Below are positions 1,993 through 64,000 of a stretch of 64,000 bases of DNA, in pieces. A model generated the notes under the pieces. It saw nothing but the letters and a program-made list of their open reading frames with translations, had not been told where the DNA came from and did not search any database. A program made the translations under genes and the position numbers. The stretch's first letter is position 1; every line of letters begins with the position of its first letter. This stretch comes from Mycobacteriales bacterium (lineage in GTDB: Bacteria; Actinomycetota; Actinomycetes; DATLTS01), in NCBI GenBank assembly GCA_035533475.1, contig DATLTS010000066.1, forward strand, positions 1 through 64,000. Reading direction: 5' to 3'.

Positions 1993-2160
1993 TCCGGGCG
2001 CCTGCGGGGTTAGCTGTCGGGTTCGGGCGGAAAGGCTGCCCGGCCACATGCGTGGCTTCACCCCGAGGCCGGCAGGGCCGGCCAGTGGACTGGTGGGTCC
2101 CCCACTCCTGCCCGCTGGCTCGTCTGGTCCCGCGGTCGGGGGCAGGGTTCGGCGAGCCGA
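1993..2160 (-). promoter_or_regulatory. c-di-AMP riboswitch (ydaO/yuaA type)
   Basis: Read on the minus strand, the leader contains the ydaO hallmarks in order: TCGCCGAACC, GGGGGACCCA, GGGGTGAA, and the 3' signature CCCGACAGCTAACC followed by CGCAGGCG. The closing helix pairs CGCC near the 5' end with GGCG at the 3' end. It ends about ten bases before the GTG of the M23-fold gene and includes no other gene. Known ydaO riboswitches bind c-di-AMP and usually reduce expression of cell-wall or osmolyte genes when the ligand is high. Confidence 0.92.
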
Positions 2161-32841: not shown

Positions 32842-34503
32842 GTGAAGCAGCTAGGTGACATCCTGCTGCAGGACGGCCTGGTCGATGCGGCACAGCTGGC
32901 CCAGGCCTACGAAGAGCATCAGCGGGTGGGCCGAAGCCTCGGCCGGGTCTTGGTCGAACGCGGGATCCTTTCCGAGTCCCAGCTTGTCTCGGCCCTAGCC
33001 ACGCAGATCGGGCTCAAGTTCGTCGACCTCGCCGACTACCAGGTCGACGCGTCGGCGGTCGCGCTCGTCCCATCGGCGGTCTGCCGCCGCTACACCGCTC
33101 TGCCGATCGGTCGGGAGGACGGCAAGCTCGTCGTCGCGATGGCCGATCCAGCCAACGTTTTCGCGCTCGACGACATCCGCTCGCTCACCGGGCTGGACGT
33201 CAAGCCGGTCGTCTCGACCCGCGGTGACGTGCTCAGCGCCATCAACCGTTTCCACCGGGTCGAGGGCGACCTCGACGACCTCACCGTCTCGATGGGGGCC
33301 GACGAGGACGAGGACCTCACCGACGTCCACGACGTGGTCGAGGACGCTCCGATCGTCAAGTTCGTCAACCTGCTGATCACCCAGGCCGTGCAGGACCGGG
33401 CTTCGGACATCCACGTGGAGCCGACCGAGCGTGACCTTCGGGTTCGGTTCCGCATCGACGGTGTGCTGCACGAGATCATGCGGTCCCCGAAGAGCATCCA
33501 GTCCGGCGTGGTAAGCCGCCTGAAGATCATGGCAGACATCAACATCGCCGAGCGCCGGATTCCCCAGGACGGGCGGCTGTCGGTCGTCGTCAACGGCAAC
33601 AAGGTCGATCTCCGGGTGGCCACCCTCCCCACGGTCTGGGGGGAGAAGGTGGTCATGCGGATCCTGGACAACGCCACAGCCATGCTGAAGCTGTCCGACC
33701 TCGGCTTCGGCGATGCGAACTACGAGCGTTACGCACAGAGCTTTTCCAAGCCCTACGGGATGATCCTGGTGACTGGCCCGACCGGCTCGGGTAAGTCGAC
33801 GACGTTGTACGCGACGCTGAACATCGTCTCGAAGCCCGAGGTCAACGTCATCACCGTCGAGGACCCGGTCGAGTACCGGCTGGCCGGGACGAACCAGGTG
33901 CAGACCAACTCGAAGGCGGGTCTCACCTTCGCCTCCGCGCTGCGCTCGATCCTGCGCTCCGACCCCGACATCGTGCTGATCGGCGAGATCCGCGACCACG
34001 AGACCGCCCAGATCGCCATCGAAGCGTCGCTCACCGGCCACCTCGTGCTGTCCACCCTGCACACCAACGACGCGCCCAGTGCGATCACCCGGTTGATCGA
34101 AATGCAGATCGAGCCGTTCCTCGTCGGGTCCGCGCTCGACTGCATCCTCGCCCAGCGTTTGGCGCGCCGGCTCTGCACCCGATGCCGGGAGGCATACACC
34201 CCGACCCGGGAGCAGCTGATCGGCTCCCGGTTCCCATGGGAGGACGGCATGGACCTTCCGACGCTGTACCGGGCGCAGGGCTGCTCGGCGTGCGCGAAAA
34301 CCGGCTACAAGGGCCGGCTCGCGCTGCATGAGGTCATGGTGGTGACCGAGGAGATCGAGCGGCTCGCGGTGGAACGCGCGTCCGCGGCACAGATCGGACA
34401 CACCGCCCGCGAGCAGGGCCTGGTCACCCTGCGTGAAGACGGCATGGCGAAGGTGCTCAAAGGTGTGACGTCACTCGAGGAGATCCTCCGAGTGGTGGTG
34501 TAA
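32842..34503 (+). CDS. pilB: Type IV pilus extension ATPase PilB
   Basis: A 553-residue GspE/PilB hexameric ATPase that powers pilus extension. Walker A GPTGSGKSTTLYA is near residue 312, the Asp box and Walker B region DIVLIGEIRDHET near 374, and a CTRC/CSAC tetracysteine zinc site near 446 and 477. The first 65 residues hold two tandem repeats of the form LGxxLxxxGLVxxxQLxxAxxxQ, matching the c-di-GMP-binding MshEN motif. The GTG start has a GGAGGTG ribosome site. It follows a sigma-28-like promoter. Confidence 0.96.
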   Translation: MKQLGDILLQDGLVDAAQLAQAYEEHQRVGRSLGRVLVERGILSESQLVSALATQIGLKFVDLADYQVDASAVALVPSAVCRRYTALPIGREDGKLVVAMADPANVFALDDIRSLTGLDVKPVVSTRGDVLSAINRFHRVEGDLDDLTVSMGADEDEDLTDVHDVVEDAPIVKFVNLLITQAVQDRASDIHVEPTERDLRVRFRIDGVLHEIMRSPKSIQSGVVSRLKIMADINIAERRIPQDGRLSVVVNGNKVDLRVATLPTVWGEKVVMRILDNATAMLKLSDLGFGDANYERYAQSFSKPYGMILVTGPTGSGKSTTLYATLNIVSKPEVNVITVEDPVEYRLAGTNQVQTNSKAGLTFASALRSILRSDPDIVLIGEIRDHETAQIAIEASLTGHLVLSTLHTNDAPSAITRLIEMQIEPFLVGSALDCILAQRLARRLCTRCREAYTPTREQLIGSRFPWEDGMDLPTLYRAQGCSACAKTGYKGRLALHEVMVVTEEIERLAVERASAAQIGHTAREQGLVTLREDGMAKVLKGVTSLEEILRVVV

Positions 34504-34547: not shown

Positions 34548-34575
34548 TCAAGCCCGCTGCTCCCGCCGCCGATGC
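34548..34575 (+). promoter_or_regulatory. FliA/WhiG-type promoter of pilT
   Basis: TCAA (34548-34551), 16 bases, GCCGATGC (34568-34575). The ATG at 34572 falls inside this -10, which argues that translation starts at GTG 34614 instead. The site shares about 30 of 46 positions with the Roadblock-gene promoter region. Confidence 0.7.
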
Positions 34576-36019: not shown

Positions 36020-37243
36020 ATGTCGACCACCTACAGCTACTCGGTCCGTGACCGCGGCGGCAAACTGGTGAACGGGACTCTCGACGCGCCCTCCCAGGCG
36101 GCCGTCGTCCAGCGGCTCAAAGCCATGGGGATGGCCCCGGTCAGCATCAGCGAGCAGAACGCCGGGCTCAAGAAGGAAATCAGCATCCCAGGCTTCGGCA
36201 AGAAGGTGAAGCTTAAGGACCTGGCGATCTTCTCCCGCCAATTCGCGACGATGATCAGCTCGGGGTTGTCGCTGCTGCGCGCCCTGAACATCCTCGCCGA
36301 GCAGACTGAGAACCCGCTGCTAGCGAAGACCGTCGGCGAGGTGCGGAACGAAGTCGAATCCGGCCAGTCGCTCTCTCAGGCCCTCGCCGTGCATCCGGAG
36401 ATCTTCCCGCCGCTCATGGTGAACATGACGAAGGCCGGCGAAGTGGGCGGCTTCCTCGACGCAACGATGGTGCAGATCGCGGAGAACTACGAGGCCGAGG
36501 TCAAGCTGCGCGGCAAGATCAAGTCCGCGATGACCTACCCGGTCGTGGTCTTCTGCATCGCCATGATGGCGGTCACGGTCATGCTGCTGTTCATCGTTCC
36601 GACGTTCGCGAAGCTGTTCGGCTCGCTCGGTGGCCGGCTTCCCGCGCCGACCCGGGCGCTGGTCTTCGCCTCGCACCTGTTGAAGATCGGATTCCCGATC
36701 CTGCTGGTGCTGGGTGTCGCCGCGTTCGTGGTCTGGGGGAAGGTGAAGCGCACCGATCAGGTCCGCAACTTCGTGGACCCGCTCAAACTTAAGATCCCCA
36801 TCTTCGGCAACCTGTTCCAGAAGGTCGCACTCAGCCGCTTCTCCCGCAACCTCGGTACGATGATCCGCTCGGGCGTCCCGATCCTCCAGTCGTTGGACAT
36901 CGTCGCGGACACGACCGGCAATGTGGTGCTCGCCCGGGCCGTCCGTGATGTCCAGGACAGCGTCCGCCAGGGAGAATCGCTCAGCGGACCTCTGGTCAAC
37001 CACGCGGTCTTCCCACCGATGGTGGTCCAGATGATGTCGGTCGGGGAGGACACCGGTGCCCTGGACGGCATGCTGGCGAAGATCGCCGAGTTCTACGACC
37101 AGGAGGTCGAGGCGACGACCGAGGCGCTCACCTCGCTGATCGAACCGGTCATGATCGCGGTTCTCGGCGGGATCATCGGCTGCATGGTGATCGCGCTCTA
37201 CCTCCCGATCTTCAACATCTACAACCTGATCGGCTCCGGCTGA
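36020..37243 (+). CDS. pilC: Type IV pilus inner-membrane platform PilC
   Basis: A 407-residue GspF-type protein with the two duplicated cytoplasmic domains (FSRQFATMISSGLSLLRAL near residue 73 and FSRNLGTMIRSGVPILQSL near 275) and three membrane segments. It couples PilB and PilT to pilin assembly. The ATG is 14 bases after pilT with a weak AGGG site. A strong hairpin terminator follows. Confidence 0.95.
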   Translation: MSTTYSYSVRDRGGKLVNGTLDAPSQAAVVQRLKAMGMAPVSISEQNAGLKKEISIPGFGKKVKLKDLAIFSRQFATMISSGLSLLRALNILAEQTENPLLAKTVGEVRNEVESGQSLSQALAVHPEIFPPLMVNMTKAGEVGGFLDATMVQIAENYEAEVKLRGKIKSAMTYPVVVFCIAMMAVTVMLLFIVPTFAKLFGSLGGRLPAPTRALVFASHLLKIGFPILLVLGVAAFVVWGKVKRTDQVRNFVDPLKLKIPIFGNLFQKVALSRFSRNLGTMIRSGVPILQSLDIVADTTGNVVLARAVRDVQDSVRQGESLSGPLVNHAVFPPMVVQMMSVGEDTGALDGMLAKIAEFYDQEVEATTEALTSLIEPVMIAVLGGIIGCMVIALYLPIFNIYNLIGSG

Positions 37244-37264
37244 CGAAGCTTCGACTGCTCCTGC

Positions 37265-37294
37265 CGGCTCGGCTCCGTTGGTGGGGCCGGGCCG
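37265..37294 (+). terminator. Terminator after pilC
   Basis: A 12-bp stem (two G-U pairs as RNA) with a six-base loop starts 22 bases after the pilC stop. It separates the pilB-pilT-pilC transcript from pilA, which has its own promoter at 37344. Confidence 0.7.
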
Positions 37295-37343
37295 GTTGGG
37301 GCTTAACGCTCAGCGGTGGGCTCGAGAGGATCGCGGTCCGGGC

Positions 37344-37371
37344 TAAAGCCCGAGGGGCTGGAGACCGATAT
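37344..37371 (+). promoter_or_regulatory. FliA/WhiG-type promoter of pilA (best of five)
   Basis: TAAA (37344-37347), 16 bases, ACCGATAT (37364-37371). The -35 equals the sigma-28 consensus exactly and the -10 differs at one base from the GCCGATAT form. Predicted transcription start is about 37378-37380, just ahead of the riboswitch. Confidence 0.8.
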
Positions 37372-37393
37372 CTGGAACGTCAACGAGCCGCAC

Positions 37394-37472
37394 GGCCAGC
37401 GAAAGGCACACCCGTCGTGAGGCGGGGCCGCAAAGCCAAGGAACCCGAGGGCCCGGGTCAGCCTGGCTGCCT
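37394..37472 (+). promoter_or_regulatory. c-di-GMP-I (GEMM-I) riboswitch in the pilA leader
   Basis: The closing helix pairs GCCAG (37395-37399) with CTGGC (37463-37467). The first hairpin is CCCGTC, GTGA tetraloop, GGCGGG (37411-37426), preceded by GGCACAC, and is followed by the class signature CGCAAAGCC (37429-37437). A second hairpin (ACCCG with CGGGT) and a GGTCAGCC segment complete the fold. These match GEMM-I in order, spacing and GNRA loop. It lies 84 bases before the pilA start. The rest of the 37244-37555 gap holds a terminator, a promoter and a CCCCGTTGGGG hairpin (near 37482-37492) that could be the expression platform. Confidence 0.88.
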
Positions 37473-37555
37473 CAGCCGGCACCCCGTTGGGGAGCCGCGC
37501 AGGGGGGATAGCACCAACCAGCGTGGCTCACCATCGTCATCATGGAAGGAACGAC

Positions 37556-38014
37556 ATGCTCGCTCGAATCCGGAAGGCGAAGGAGGAGGGTGAGGGCGGT
37601 TTCACCCTCATCGAGCTCCTGGTCGTCATCATCATCATCGGCATCCTCGCGGCGATCGCCATCCCGGTCTTCCTGAACCAGCGGAAGAAGGCGTGGGACG
37701 CGGCGGTCAAGTCCGACCTGCGTAACGCGGCCACCGCGGAGGAGACCTACAACACCGACCAAGGCTACTACACCGCCCTTAGCGGGGACCTGATCAACGA
37801 CGGCTTCAAGTTTTCGGCCGCCGGCAACTACACCGGCGCTCCCGCTTTCGTCTTCTCGCTCTACAATGCCTCAGGCGCTACAGCCACTGGCACGGCCGCG
37901 ACTGGCAGCTTCTGCTTGACCGCCACGTCGGCATCATCCCACGTGTGGGTGTACGACAGCGGCAACGGTGGGCTCCAGCCCAGCTCGGTCACGGGTTGCC
38001 CGGCTACCGACTAG
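37556..38014 (+). CDS. pilA: Major type IV pilin PilA
   Basis: A 152-residue prepilin. The leader of 15 residues ends in GG and is cut before FTLIELLVVIIIIGILAAIA, with the conserved Glu at mature position 5. A Ser/Thr/Ala/Gly-rich globular domain with two Cys (FCL near 123 and GCPATD at the end) suggests the usual disulfide loop. The ATG was chosen because AAGGA lies six bases upstream. Expression appears to depend on the sigma-28-like promoter and c-di-GMP riboswitch. A perfect hairpin terminator follows. Confidence 0.96.
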   Translation: MLARIRKAKEEGEGGFTLIELLVVIIIIGILAAIAIPVFLNQRKKAWDAAVKSDLRNAATAEETYNTDQGYYTALSGDLINDGFKFSAAGNYTGAPAFVFSLYNASGATATGTAATGSFCLTATSASSHVWVYDSGNGGLQPSSVTGCPATD

Positions 38015-38192: not shown

Positions 38193-38813
38193 ATGAAACC
38201 CGCGGATCCCGCTCCTGGCCTCAAGCGTCCAGCCGGGATCGCCGATAGCCCCAATGTGAAAGCCCTGCTCCGTATGGTGTGCTCCCGCGCGCGCGCGTTC
38301 GCGCCGGATGCGGATTCCACGGGCGAGGCCGGATTCACGCTCCTGGAACTGCTCGTGGCCATCGCCATAATGGGCATCCTCGGCGCCATCTCGGTCTGGG
38401 GGCTGCACGCCTACATAAACAGCCAGGACGAGTCCACGACCGCCCAGAAGACCCTGGCGATCCTGCGCGACGCTTCGACCCGCGCCCAGGCCGAGGGCCG
38501 CACCTACTGCGTGGCACTGAGCTCGACCGGCTGGACCGAATACCGGTACAACTGCCCGACCCCGCCCTCCGGGTCCACTCCGCCGGTCCAGGTGACCACC
38601 GGGGTGGTCACCGGCAGCGGCGTGACCCTGACCGCAGGTTTCGTCCCCCCGTCGGGGAGCACGCTCGGTTGCCCGACTAGCAATGCGTGCGCCTACTTCT
38701 ACCCGCGTGGTAACGCCCTCGCCGGCACCGTAACGGTGAGCCGCACGAACTCCGCTTCCGCGTACACCGTTCACGTCGAGGGGTTGACGGGCCGTGTCTG
38801 GCTGGTTCACTAA
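38193..38813 (+). CDS. Minor prepilin, FimT/GspH-like
   Basis: A prepilin with cleavage site EAG before FTLLELLVAIAIMGILGAIS and Glu at mature position 5. The globular part has a FimT/GspH-like beta-rich pattern. The leader is 47 residues from ATG 38193, 26 from GTG 38256 and 20 from ATG 38274. None has a good ribosome site; the longest is listed, but a shorter leader is more usual. It overlaps the next gene by 20 bases. It probably primes pilus assembly. Confidence 0.85.
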   Translation: MKPADPAPGLKRPAGIADSPNVKALLRMVCSRARAFAPDADSTGEAGFTLLELLVAIAIMGILGAISVWGLHAYINSQDESTTAQKTLAILRDASTRAQAEGRTYCVALSSTGWTEYRYNCPTPPSGSTPPVQVTTGVVTGSGVTLTAGFVPPSGSTLGCPTSNACAYFYPRGNALAGTVTVSRTNSASAYTVHVEGLTGRVWLVH

Positions 38814-43743: not shown

Positions 43744-43771
43744 TCAAGCGGAGGGCACAGACGGCCGATCC
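43744..43771 (+). promoter_or_regulatory. FliA/WhiG-type promoter of pilM operon
   Basis: TCAA (43744-43747), 16 bases, GCCGATCC (43764-43771), 73 bases before the pilM GTG. The -35 lies in a short hairpin (43737-43752). The same -35/-10 spacing as the other four sites. Confidence 0.65.
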
Positions 43772-48705: not shown

Positions 48706-49754
48706 GCGCGGACGTCGTGGTCGAAGGCCCCGCCCCGTACACCGTCACCATCGGCCGGGGCGCATTGGACGCCGCCCTGCCCGCACTGGTCGGCTCGGCC
48801 GGGACGGTGGCGATCGTCCACCCGGCGAGCCTCGCGCACCTCGCCGACCGGATCCAGGCGGCGCTGCGCGACGCCGGGGTCACCGCGACCGCGCTGCCCG
48901 TTCCGGACGGCGAAGCCGCGAAGGACAGCGCGGTGGTGGTCGAGCTGTGGGCGAGGCTCGGTGAGCTTCGCCTGACCCGCACCGACGCGGTCCTCGGCGT
49001 AGGGGGCGGCGCCACGACCGACGCGGCCGGCTTCGTCGCGGCCACCTGGCTGCGCGGAGTGCGGCTGGGGCTGGTTCCTACGACGCTGCTCGGGATGGTC
49101 GACGCGGCAGTCGGCGGCAAGACGGGGATCAACACGGCGGCCGGCAAGAACCTGGTCGGCGCCTTCCATCCGCCGGCGGGCGTCGTCTGCGACCTCGAAC
49201 TGCTCGACTCGCTGCCGGCCGTCGAGCTCGCCAGCGGCCTGGCCGAGGTGGCGAAGTGCGGGTTCATCGCGGACGCCCGGATCCTTGAGCTCATCGACGC
49301 CGGACCGCAGCGCCACCTCGAGGAACTGGTGGTCCGCTCGGTCGAGGTGAAGGCCCGAGTGGTCGGCGCGGACCTGCGGGAATCCGGGCTGCGGGCCGTG
49401 CTCAACTACGGGCACACGCTCGCCCACGCCCTGGAGCGGGTCGAGGGTTACCGGTGGCGCCACGGCGAGGCGGTCAGCGTCGGGTTGGTCTACGCCGCGG
49501 CGTTGAGCCGGCGGGTCGCCGGGCTGGCCGCGCGCGACGTGGACCGCCACCGCGAGATCCTCACCGGACTCGGCCTGCCGACGGCCTACCGGCCGGAGGC
49601 CTGGCCGGAGCTGCTGGAGTCGATGCGCTCGGACAAGAAAGCCCGGGGGTCGCGGCTACGTTTCGTCGTTCTCGAGGCAATGGGTCGCCCCGCGGTGGTC
49701 GACGCCCCGGACGACCAGCAGCTGGCCGATGTCTACGCGGAGGTCTGCGGATGA
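48702..49754 (+). CDS. aroB: 3-Dehydroquinate synthase
   Basis: A 350-residue NAD- and metal-dependent enzyme. It shows GVGGGATTDAAGFVAATWLRG, the SLP-like PTTLLGMVDAAVGGKTGIN segment, and the metal-binding NYGHTLAHALE and HGEAVSVGL motifs. It converts DAHP to 3-dehydroquinate. Coupled to aroK and aroQ by four-base overlaps. Confidence 0.97.
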   Translation: MSADVVVEGPAPYTVTIGRGALDAALPALVGSAGTVAIVHPASLAHLADRIQAALRDAGVTATALPVPDGEAAKDSAVVVELWARLGELRLTRTDAVLGVGGGATTDAAGFVAATWLRGVRLGLVPTTLLGMVDAAVGGKTGINTAAGKNLVGAFHPPAGVVCDLELLDSLPAVELASGLAEVAKCGFIADARILELIDAGPQRHLEELVVRSVEVKARVVGADLRESGLRAVLNYGHTLAHALERVEGYRWRHGEAVSVGLVYAAALSRRVAGLAARDVDRHREILTGLGLPTAYRPEAWPELLESMRSDKKARGSRLRFVVLEAMGRPAVVDAPDDQQLADVYAEVCG

Positions 49755-51203: not shown

Positions 51204-51716
51204 TCACACCCCCGCGTCGACCGCCCGCCGGGCTTCCGGGTTCAGGACCCCCCAGGAGATGAGCTTCTCGGTCAGGTCGCCGGGGGAGCGGTCGTAGATG
51301 ACGGCGAGGGACCGCAGGTCCTCCTGGCGGATCGAGAGCACCCGCCCGTTGTAGTCACCGCGCTGGCTCTGGATCGTGGCCGCATACCGGTGCAAAGGAC
51401 CCGCCTCGTCGGCCGGGACGCCCTGTAGCAGCTCGAGGTCGATGACGATCCTCGGCGGCGGCTCGCTCGCGGCAGCGGAGGAGATGCCCTCCGGGAGCAA
51501 TTCGGACACCGGAACGCTGTAGAAGTCGGCGAGCTCCGCCAGCCGCTGGACGGTGACCGCCCGGTCCCCACGCTCGTAGGAGCCGACGACCACGGCCTTC
51601 CAGCGGCCGTTGGACTTCTCCTCGACCCCGTGCAGGGACAAGCCCTGCTGGGTCCGGATGGCGCGCAGCCGAGCGCCCAACGCCTTGGCATAGCCCGAGG
51701 GCTGTTCTTCGGTCAT
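51204..51716 (-). CDS. bldD: Developmental regulator BldD
   Basis: A 170-residue DNA-binding protein. The N-terminal XRE-type helix-turn-helix spans about residues 10-78 (GARLRAIRTQQGLSLHGVEEKS...VGSYERGDRAVTVQRLAELADFY). The C-terminal domain keeps the c-di-GMP motif RxD-x8-RxxD: Arg119-Gly-Asp121, eight residues, Arg130-Gln-Glu-Asp133. In Streptomyces a c-di-GMP tetramer dimerises BldD to repress sporulation genes including whiG. A likely BldD box lies in the upstream gap. ATG start. Confidence 0.97.
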   Translation of the reverse strand: MTEEQPSGYAKALGARLRAIRTQQGLSLHGVEEKSNGRWKAVVVGSYERGDRAVTVQRLAELADFYSVPVSELLPEGISSAAASEPPPRIVIDLELLQGVPADEAGPLHRYAATIQSQRGDYNGRVLSIRQEDLRSLAVIYDRSPGDLTEKLISWGVLNPEARRAVDAGV

Positions 51717-51854
51717 TTGGGCTCCGGGGAGGATGCGGTCTGGAGCGGAACGTCGGTCTCACCAGTGGCTCGTCCTGGGGATGCGCCCACCGGCCGGATC
51801 GGCCGTCGGGCGCGTGGTGACCGCGGACCCCCAGGAGTCATCGCCTCGCTCCCA

Positions 51855-51869
51855 GTTACAGAGCGTAAC
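51855..51869. promoter_or_regulatory. BldD box in the bldD-pyrR gap
   Basis: GTTACAGAGCGTAAC matches the BldD consensus TnACnC(A/T)GnGTnA with one mismatch. It lies 139 bases upstream of bldD, consistent with the autoregulation known in Streptomyces. The surrounding gap (51717-52018) otherwise holds only a possible TACGGT -10 at 51994-51999 for the pyr operon. Confidence 0.65.
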
Positions 51870-62030: not shown

Positions 62031-64000
62031 ATGGCTGGTCCCAACGGGGGCCGCCTGGTCGTCCTCCTCGTAGAGGACGACCCCGACCATGCCTTCATCC
62101 TGACCCGTGGGCTCGCCGGTCTCGACGCCCCGCAGGTCCACGTGGAGCATGTCGGCTCGGCCGCCGCGGCGGTCGAGGCGCTGGCCGCCGGGAGTCCGAT
62201 CGACTGCGTGCTCTGCGACCTCACCCTGCCCGATGCCCGCGGGCTCGAGGCCCTCGAGATGGTGCGCCGCGCGGCCGGCGACGTCCCGATCGTCGTCCTC
62301 ACCGGAAACGACAGCGACGCGCTCGGGGTGACGGCGCTACAGACCGGGGCGCAGGACTACCTGGTCAAAGGCCGCGTCGACCCGGCGCTGATCGCCCGTT
62401 CGCTGCGCTTCGCCATCGAGCGCAGCGCCCGGGCCCGGGCCGAGCGTTCCCAGGTCGCCATCGCCGATCGCCTCCGCCTCGTCCTCGAGGCGATCGCCGA
62501 GGGGATCTGCTGGCTCGACCGCGACGGCCGGTGCACCTACCTCAACCCGGGGGCCGCGGAGATCATCGGATACCGGGCGGGGGACGTGGCGGGCGCCCGG
62601 TGGCACGACCTGGTCGGCTGTCGCGGACCCGACGACGAGTGCGGCCTGGAGGCGGCTCTGTCCAGCGCCGAGCCGGTCGACCTGGGGGACCAGATCCTCA
62701 CCCGGGCCGACGGCTCGGCGATCGTGGTCGAGGCGCGGGTCCGGCCGATCTTCGACGACGACGAGGCAGCCGTCGCCGGGGTGGTGGTCACCTTCACCGA
62801 CGTGACGGCCGCCCGGCGCGCGCAGACTGCGCTGGTCAACCGTGAGGCGCAGCTCGCGGAAGCCCAGCGGGTCGCCCGGCTCGGCAGCTTCGAACACGAC
62901 CTGGTCACCGGGCGCGTCGACTCCTCGCCCGAGCTGGGCCGCCTGCTCGGCATCCCCCCCGAGCAGATGCCGCACACCGACGCCCTGTTCGCCGCATACG
63001 TGACCCGGGTGCCGCCCAGCGAGCGGCCGGCGGTCACCGAGCTGCTGCGCCGGGCGGCGACCGCCGGGATCCCGGTGAGCTTCCAGCACCGCCTGAACCA
63101 TCCGGACGGCACGCAACGCTGGCTGGACTGCCGGATCGAGGTCCGCAACCGGGGCTCGAACGGGCACCCGACGAAGGTGGTCGGGGCGGTTCAGGACGTG
63201 ACCGACCAGAAGCTCGCCGAGGACGCCGTCGCGCATGCCGCCGTGCACGACGCCCTCACCGGCCTGGCGAACCGGGTGCTGCTCGCCGACCGGCTGGAAC
63301 GGGCCCTGCTGGTGGCCCGGCGCCGCGCCGGCTTCGTCGGCGTGATCTTCCTGGACCTCGACCGGTTCAAGCTGCTCAACGACAGCCTGAGCCATCGGGT
63401 GGGCGATCAGCTGCTGGTGCAGGTCGCCGGCGCGTTGAGCGAGGCGATCCGCCTCCCGGACACGCTGGCGCGTTTCGGCGGGGACGAGTTCGTGGTGCTG
63501 TGCGAGGACCTGCGCGACGAGCGCGCGGTGCTCGACGTGGCGGAGCGGCTCGCCGCCGCGCTGACCCGGCCGTTCAACGTCGGCGACCGCGAGGTCCGGG
63601 TGACCGCCAGCATGGGCATCGCGCTGGCCGGGCCCGGCACCATCGGCGACACCGAGGGCTTGCTGCGCGACGCCGACGCGGCGATGTACCGGGCGAAGGA
63701 GGCCGGTCGCGGTCGCTACGAGGTCTTCGACGCCCGGATGCGGGCCGCCGTGCGCAGCCGGATGGACACCGAGCAGGCGCTGCGGTCCGCGCTCGACCGG
63801 GATGAGATCACCGTCTTCTATCAGCCGATCGTCGACCTGATGACCCAGAGCGTGGTCGCCGTCGAGGCGCTGGCCCGCTGGTCGCACCCGCAGCACGGGA
63901 TCAGGGATCCGGCCAGCTTCATCCCGATCGCCGAGGAAACCGGCATGATCGAGGAGCTCGGCCGCCGGGTCCTCGACCTGTCGTGTCGCACCGTCGTGGA
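62031..64000 (+). CDS. REC-PAS-PAS-GGDEF-EAL c-di-GMP enzyme (cut by window end)
   Basis: Open from ATG 62031 to the edge (656 codons) with no stop. A receiver domain (VEDD at residues 14-17, phospho-acceptor Asp63, YLVKG near 117) is followed by two PAS domains (about 145-260 and 275-395). The GGDEF domain has the intact active site RFGGDEF (483-487) and an inhibitory RxxD site five residues before it. An EAL domain then begins (FYQPIV, EAL at 612-614). Both c-di-GMP synthesis and breakdown are possible. The ATG was chosen for AAAG and the receiver-domain start. Confidence 0.93.
   Translation, partial: MAGPNGGRLVVLLVEDDPDHAFILTRGLAGLDAPQVHVEHVGSAAAAVEALAAGSPIDCVLCDLTLPDARGLEALEMVRRAAGDVPIVVLTGNDSDALGVTALQTGAQDYLVKGRVDPALIARSLRFAIERSARARAERSQVAIADRLRLVLEAIAEGICWLDRDGRCTYLNPGAAEIIGYRAGDVAGARWHDLVGCRGPDDECGLEAALSSAEPVDLGDQILTRADGSAIVVEARVRPIFDDDEAAVAGVVVTFTDVTAARRAQTALVNREAQLAEAQRVARLGSFEHDLVTGRVDSSPELGRLLGIPPEQMPHTDALFAAYVTRVPPSERPAVTELLRRAATAGIPVSFQHRLNHPDGTQRWLDCRIEVRNRGSNGHPTKVVGAVQDVTDQKLAEDAVAHAAVHDALTGLANRVLLADRLERALLVARRRAGFVGVIFLDLDRFKLLNDSLSHRVGDQLLVQVAGALSEAIRLPDTLARFGGDEFVVLCEDLRDERAVLDVAERLAAALTRPFNVGDREVRVTASMGIALAGPGTIGDTEGLLRDADAAMYRAKEAGRGRYEVFDARMRAAVRSRMDTEQALRSALDRDEITVFYQPIVDLMTQSVVAVEALARWSHPQHGIRDPASFIPIAEETGMIEELGRRVLDLSCRTVV

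Follow-up and report, generated by a model that had tools for sequence, protein, structure and literature searches.

The window (the whole stretch of DNA analysed, 64,000 nt) carries a type IV pilus gene cluster on its forward (+) strand, to which all features described here belong unless noted otherwise. The assembly ATPase is encoded by pilB (32842-34503), and its N-terminus is of the MshEN / MshE-type, c-di-GMP-binding kind according to the profile matches (NF053729, 55.3 bits with a cut-off of 38; PF05157 MshEN, 89.9 bits). The inner membrane platform protein is encoded by pilC (36020-37243; T2SSF, PF00482). The major type IV pilin (152 aa) is encoded by pilA (37556-38014), which is assigned to an open reading frame with an internal start, has the N_methyl domain (PF07963) and is kept in relatives. 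PilM is a TIGR01175 match. The ribosome binding site of pilA (GGAAGG) is at 37544-37549.

An earlier note on this DNA had described an ordered set of elements between pilC and pilA. TAAA (37344-37347), ACCGATAT (37364-37371), an aptamer, a CCCC/GGGG hairpin, GGAAGG and the pilA start codon (ATG, 37556) are indeed all present in this order. The hairpin (37482-37492) is, however, only the core of a longer helix that extends over 37478-37496. The proposed pilC terminator did not hold up: there is at most a GC-rich hairpin lacking a T-run, and a scan of 37200-37600 returned no canonical terminator on the + strand, neither behind pilC nor between the aptamer and pilA.

The WhiG-type promoter and its probable sigma factor

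The flagellar-type consensus of WhiG promoters is TAAA / GCCGATAA. In the study that we follow here, TAAA and GCCGATAA are expected about 15-16 nt apart, with no more than two mismatches (PMC8325347). The WhiG/FliA-type promoter upstream of pilA (37344-37371) has TAAAG as its -35 element and ACCGATAT as its -10 element. Read as TAAA-N16-ACCGATAT (equal to TAAAG-N15-ACCGATAT), it falls within this definition, with two mismatches, both in the -10 element. The spacer after TAAA is 16 nt long, as had been claimed; this is the classical FliA/WhiG spacing plus one, and N15 and N16 occur alike in relatives. Transcription is predicted to start 5-8 nt past the -10 element (37376-37379).

Each of the 24 pilA leaders that were searched carries a looser form of the motif (a T[AC]AA-type -35 and NNCGA as -10), its -10 element being 34-44 nt before the aptamer core. 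The strict motif occurs within 100 nt upstream of 23 of the 27 pilA-linked aptamers (22 at -59 to -68, the one at locus L117 at -110), a set that includes near-identical copies, so that the effective number is smaller. The chance expectation from order-1 Markov resampling is 0.25, and the antisense strand has no match. The strict motif was also found at four of six loci of the secreted-CAP-domain-protein type, and at none of the seven GEMM-I loci of other genes. The occurrence of the promoter motif before pilA aptamers is not due to chance.

WhiG is represented in the genome by one clear copy (NF004935 equivalog, 419.6 bits, cut-off 343), the gene for which is located between an xerC-like gene and rpsB (locus L003). 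We infer that this is the sigma factor acting at the promoter at 37344-37371. It is improbable that another sigma factor uses this promoter, or that most pilA transcription is read-through from pilC, either of which would make the sigma gate irrelevant. The pilC-pilA gap lacking a T-run terminator fits such a reading, as does the lineage's set of -35 variants (TCAAG/TAAAG), which is broader than the classical TAAA. The genome scan, however, gave a single strong FliA/WhiG-family sigma factor (278 bits, the next best having 119), a sigma-70-type promoter was not found in the scan of 37200-37600, and the distance between motif and aptamer is nearly fixed, as a start site would need.

Two genes code for the anti-sigma factor RsiG (PF22802 matches). 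Each product has twin E(X)3S(X)2R(X)3[Q/H](X)3D motifs, of which EVDLSYTRRLLQGRID and ERVVSETRHTVQVIAD are examples that were read directly. A c-di-GMP-dependent RsiG-WhiG complex is known from Streptomyces and Rubrobacter (PMC8325347). As the genome encodes RsiG in two copies, c-di-GMP probably governs the sigma-factor gate as well, and by analogy the RsiG proteins of this genome would presumably require c-di-GMP. With 22 GGDEF domains encoded in the genome, c-di-GMP signalling is well represented; flagellin is not encoded in the genome. RsiG is found in 28 of the 29 GEMM-I-positive genomes tested. This co-occurrence was rejected as proof of a link, being unspecific, because 8 of the 13 GEMM-I-negative genomes tested also carry RsiG.

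The WhiG-type pattern, which was derived from the pilA leaders, has 43 matches in the genome (14 for the reversed pattern), the remaining sites being a partly independent test. Ten of the 43 are on the 93-kb contig to which the window belongs (binomial P 2.9e-7). Some of the 43, located inside genes, will be due to chance. Sites of the form TCAAG-N15-GCCGAT are found before or at the start of pilT (34548-34573), upstream of a minor pilin gene (38221-38246) and upstream of pilM (43744-43769).

Several further sites are outside the window. The second rsiG gene is preceded by a WhiG-type site (contig C41, 151646-151671), which suggests that WhiG might exert feedback on its own anti-sigma factor. 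The same contig has a second GEMM-I copy at position 62788 (RF01051, 54.6 bits; locus L002, 62699-62868), with a WhiG-type site (62699) about 90 nt upstream. The gene at this locus codes for a secreted CAP-domain (YkwD-like) protein, and the pairing of WhiG-type site and GEMM-I before a CAP gene is seen again in relatives. On contig C64, a c-di-GMP-II riboswitch (49224-49398, - strand; L175) directly follows a WhiG-type TCAAG-N15-GCCGAT (49373) and precedes the gene for a probably secreted protein, so that the pairing of WhiG site and riboswitch extends to the class II aptamer.

The aptamer and the pilA leader

The GEMM-I (c-di-GMP-I) aptamer, including its outer P1 helix (CGGC at 37393-37396 with GCCG at 37475-37478), extends over 37393-37478 and was detected with cmscan; P2 and P3 show covariation. 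The earlier note had predicted a complete aptamer and had proposed a search with the covariance model RF01051. This search placed a match of 57.5 bits (cut-off 35) at 37395-37474. The aptamer is complete, with a GNRA loop (GUGA), CGCAAAGCC and the closing helix. The best-scoring member of the clan is RF03167 (c-di-GMP-I-GGC), with 60.5 bits at 37396-37475 (cut-off 59, reached; E 8.5e-12 for the window).

Residues G20, A47 and C92 (numbering of Vc2) are ligand contacts of GEMM-I (PMC4744006; a broader residue list is given in PMC7288161). Their equivalents are G at 37405, A at 37432 and C at 37470, the numbering for the first and the last having been transferred by hand along the alignment and the second being taken from the cmscan alignment. 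These three columns do not vary among 16 aligned pilA leaders. With the canonical G20/A47/C92 set at its contact sites, the pilA-leader aptamer likely binds c-di-GMP.

We consider it quite improbable that the aptamer is instead a variant (c-di-GMP-I-GGC) for another signalling molecule, in which case the leader would integrate two different signals. Such a variant would be in line with the higher score of RF03167 (60.5 against 57.5 bits), and the GGC group was reportedly once separated as a putative altered-specificity variant. The name GGC, as we read it from the alignment, presumably denotes the bases at Vc2 positions 20, 47 and 92. At these positions, the window and the aligned pilA leaders read G-A-C. 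RF03167 has G as its consensus base at position 47, which would be the middle letter of GGC; the window lacks this G and has CGCAAAGCC where the consensus has CGCGAAGCC. The retained A47 rules out the altered-ligand GGC variant as the most likely identity. Furthermore, the canonical RF01051 model also scores well above its cut-off, and G20 speaks against the c-AMP-GMP type, of which G20A is the mark (PMC7288161).

Outside the aptamer core, the leader has additional helices. P4 is a hairpin, GGC-A-CCCC-GUU-GGGG-A-GCC (37478-37496), and four of its seven pairs show changes on both sides across relatives. P0 would connect the 5' end of the leader (GAGCCGC, 37385-37391) to 37523-37529, upstream of the ribosome binding site; five of its pairs were also predicted independently by RNAalifold and were counted on 16 leaders. 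The five-helix structure has 90.7% standard pairs on these 16 leaders, and 28 cells are changed on both sides, compared with 11.3 in shuffles (0 of 500 as high) and 4-14 in slid versions. P0 is rated as probable only, because it is short in most leaders (5-7 bp in most relatives) and many instances are not significant individually. In divergent leaders, equivalents formed by different complementary strands take its place, as at L121 (CUGCAAGCCGG/CCGGCUUGCAG, 11 bp) and at L081 (AUGACCGCU/AGCGGUCGU, 9 bp).

The 3' strand of P0 is part of GCGUGGCUC (37521-37529), which precedes the ribosome binding site by about 15 nt. According to the partition function, this segment can alternatively pair with GAGCCGCGC (37492-37500) to form P5. 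P5 excludes P0 and the outer part of P4, with which it shares strands, and it dominates the computed ensemble in the window (pair probability about 0.97 without ligand). A universal P5 switch hairpin was nevertheless rejected as the mechanism; it is strong in the window but missing in several relatives.

A decayed leader aptamer devoid of regulatory function is hardly credible, even though P1 of the window is weak (it has a C.A mismatch where relatives are paired) and folding shows no obvious expression platform, given that the contact bases are invariant across 16 divergent leaders and that P2, P3 and P4 covary.

The window and the rest of the genome contain further riboswitches. A c-di-GMP-II(-GAG) riboswitch (51743-51857, - strand, 50.1 bits, cut-off 40) is located directly upstream of bldD (51207-51716, - strand; NF050110, 293 bits). 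The bldD product contains RGD-X8-RQED, which we take to be the c-di-GMP-binding signature of BldD; a c-di-GMP riboswitch thus stands ahead of the gene for a c-di-GMP receptor. This arrangement is found in three of 15 bldD loci from relatives (L182, L188 and L192), and at L183 the riboswitch follows bldD. Two c-di-GMP-II aptamers in tandem (contig C66, 71242-71509; L176) precede the gene for a probably secreted protein. The window also has a c-di-AMP (ydaO) riboswitch at 2004-2105 (- strand, 52.1 bits, cut-off 38).

Probable two-stage control and its likely direction

The earlier note had proposed that pilin synthesis is gated twice, by a sigma factor and by a c-di-GMP aptamer, and the comparative evidence supports this. 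We consider it quite likely, leaving aside the direction of the switch, that the pilA leader provides two-stage control by c-di-GMP. The promoter, the aptamer and the MshEN domain of PilB together imply that one messenger probably acts on this pilus at three levels, namely transcription start, mRNA leader and motor.

The following sequence of events is proposed. Transcription would initiate at the WhiG promoter at 37344-37371. When c-di-GMP is high, the RsiG anti-sigma factors would hold WhiG, as they do in Streptomyces and Rubrobacter. The nascent mRNA would open with the canonical GEMM-I aptamer, to which c-di-GMP could bind. Binding would stabilise the P1/P2/P3 fold, and P0, P4 and the competing P5 would be rearranged. 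The strand shared by P0 and P5 is just upstream of the ribosome binding site, and pilA expression may thereby be altered after initiation. PilB would be the third input for c-di-GMP. The window leader is devoid of a classical terminator, and we therefore infer that translation or mRNA stability is the regulated step.

Computed folding gave no consistent sign for the switch. In partition functions of 19 leaders, the mean accessibility of the ribosome site was 0.52 with the aptamer enforced and 0.53 with the leader free. Two distant actinobacterial pilA leaders, at L117 and L056, have a readable sign of their own, as an intrinsic terminator comes after the aptamer there. One terminator arm, GUGGUUUGCC, is the exact complement of GGCAAACCAC in the aptamer, and the two pair as an antiterminator in the minimum-energy fold (L117, 2311-2460; L056, 1784-1925). 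Ligand binding should thus release the terminator, and both aptamers are predicted to be c-di-GMP-OFF. At both loci, the WhiG-type motif is absent from its usual place, and they are too distant to set the sign for the window. An antiterminator of the L117 type in the window was looked for by a search for complementarity between aptamer and downstream leader. Only GGGYCGC with GYGGCUC turned up, in about half of the leaders, which is not decisive.

Because these two homologues read as OFF, we lean moderately towards an OFF riboswitch in the window too, so that both gates would close at high c-di-GMP. The alternative is a riboswitch that is ON while RsiG and WhiG are OFF for the same messenger, with pilA being expressed solely at intermediate c-di-GMP (band-pass). 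This is possible but rather unlikely. It is compatible with the folding, which gave no sign, and both ON and OFF GEMM-I riboswitches exist (PMC9262584). Moreover, PilB has an MshEN domain, and in Vibrio, c-di-GMP favours pilus extension via MshE (PMC8325347). It is countered by L117 and L056, the only pilA-linked GEMM-I instances with a readable expression platform, both of which look OFF. A fuller version, which we regard as unlikely, has three readings of c-di-GMP with opposite signs: RsiG would shut the WhiG promoter, but the riboswitch and the PilB motor would require the messenger, and pili would be made at intermediate c-di-GMP. If true, the anti-sigma factor, the riboswitch and the receptor in the motor would form a single-signal band-pass circuit that is conserved across a whole actinobacterial lineage.

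Two-stage control at pilA bears on how c-di-GMP receptors are viewed. They have mostly been studied singly, and this pilus cluster appears to hold three kinds of input (anti-sigma factor, riboswitch and motor ATPase). Receptors stacked at one cluster allow one to ask whether the response is sharpened, faster or band-limited.

Distribution and comparison with known systems

A sample of 297 genomes of the class contained 44 with matches to RF03167. The pilA-linked type (records L046, L049, L079, L081, L087, L088, L089, L098 and L121) occurs in many families, and its records include Frankiaceae, Frankiales, Nanopelagicales and Actinomycetes MAGs. Judged from these sequences, the combination of promoter and riboswitch is kept across many families of the lineage. 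WhiG promoter and riboswitch would thus make up a c-di-GMP regulon motif for a large and mostly uncultured group of actinobacteria.

The earlier note had called the combination seemingly unusual. Its WhiG/FliA half is not, since such control of actinobacterial type IV pili has already been reported in Rubrobacter, and the case of Actinoplanes has been discussed (PMC8325347). Searches of openly available full-text papers turned up no account of a c-di-GMP riboswitch paired with a WhiG-type promoter. Taken singly, WhiG control of actinobacterial type IV pili is known, and so are GEMM-I aptamers at pilin genes.

The closest system is that of Rubrobacter, where the pilus cluster contains WhiG-type promoters with mapped starts and where RsiG binds c-di-GMP (PMC8325347). 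It shares with the window genome the promoters of the TAAA / GCCGATAA class within a type IV pilus cluster and the presence of both WhiG and RsiG. It differs in that its RsiG is a single-motif homodimer, whereas the window genome codes for two twin-motif RsiG proteins; riboswitches are unmentioned in that paper, and the -35 element in the window genome is often TCAAG. The zoospore pili of Actinoplanes missouriensis are a likewise actinobacterial case of type IV pilus genes controlled by FliA/WhiG-family sigma factors, but Actinoplanes is devoid of RsiG according to the same paper, which mentions no riboswitch there (PMC8325347). PilB shares with MshE/PilB-type ATPases the MshEN receptor domain for c-di-GMP (PMC5013675); in the window, this would be a layer added to the two leader controls.

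On the RNA side, RF03167 (c-di-GMP-I-GGC) is the best covariance match, but the leader differs from it by lacking G47 and having the canonical G-A-C binding site. In other phyla, GEMM-I riboswitches associated with pilus and surface genes (for example Vibrio Vc1/Vc2, Geobacter pilM and Clostridioides Cd1) share with the pilA leader the aptamer fold and the bases of the c-di-GMP-binding site. Compared to these, the pilA leader adds a probable 5'-3' helix (P0) around the aptamer and a hairpin (P4), lacks an intrinsic terminator and is under a WhiG-type promoter. The parts are known, and their conserved arrangement appears to be new.
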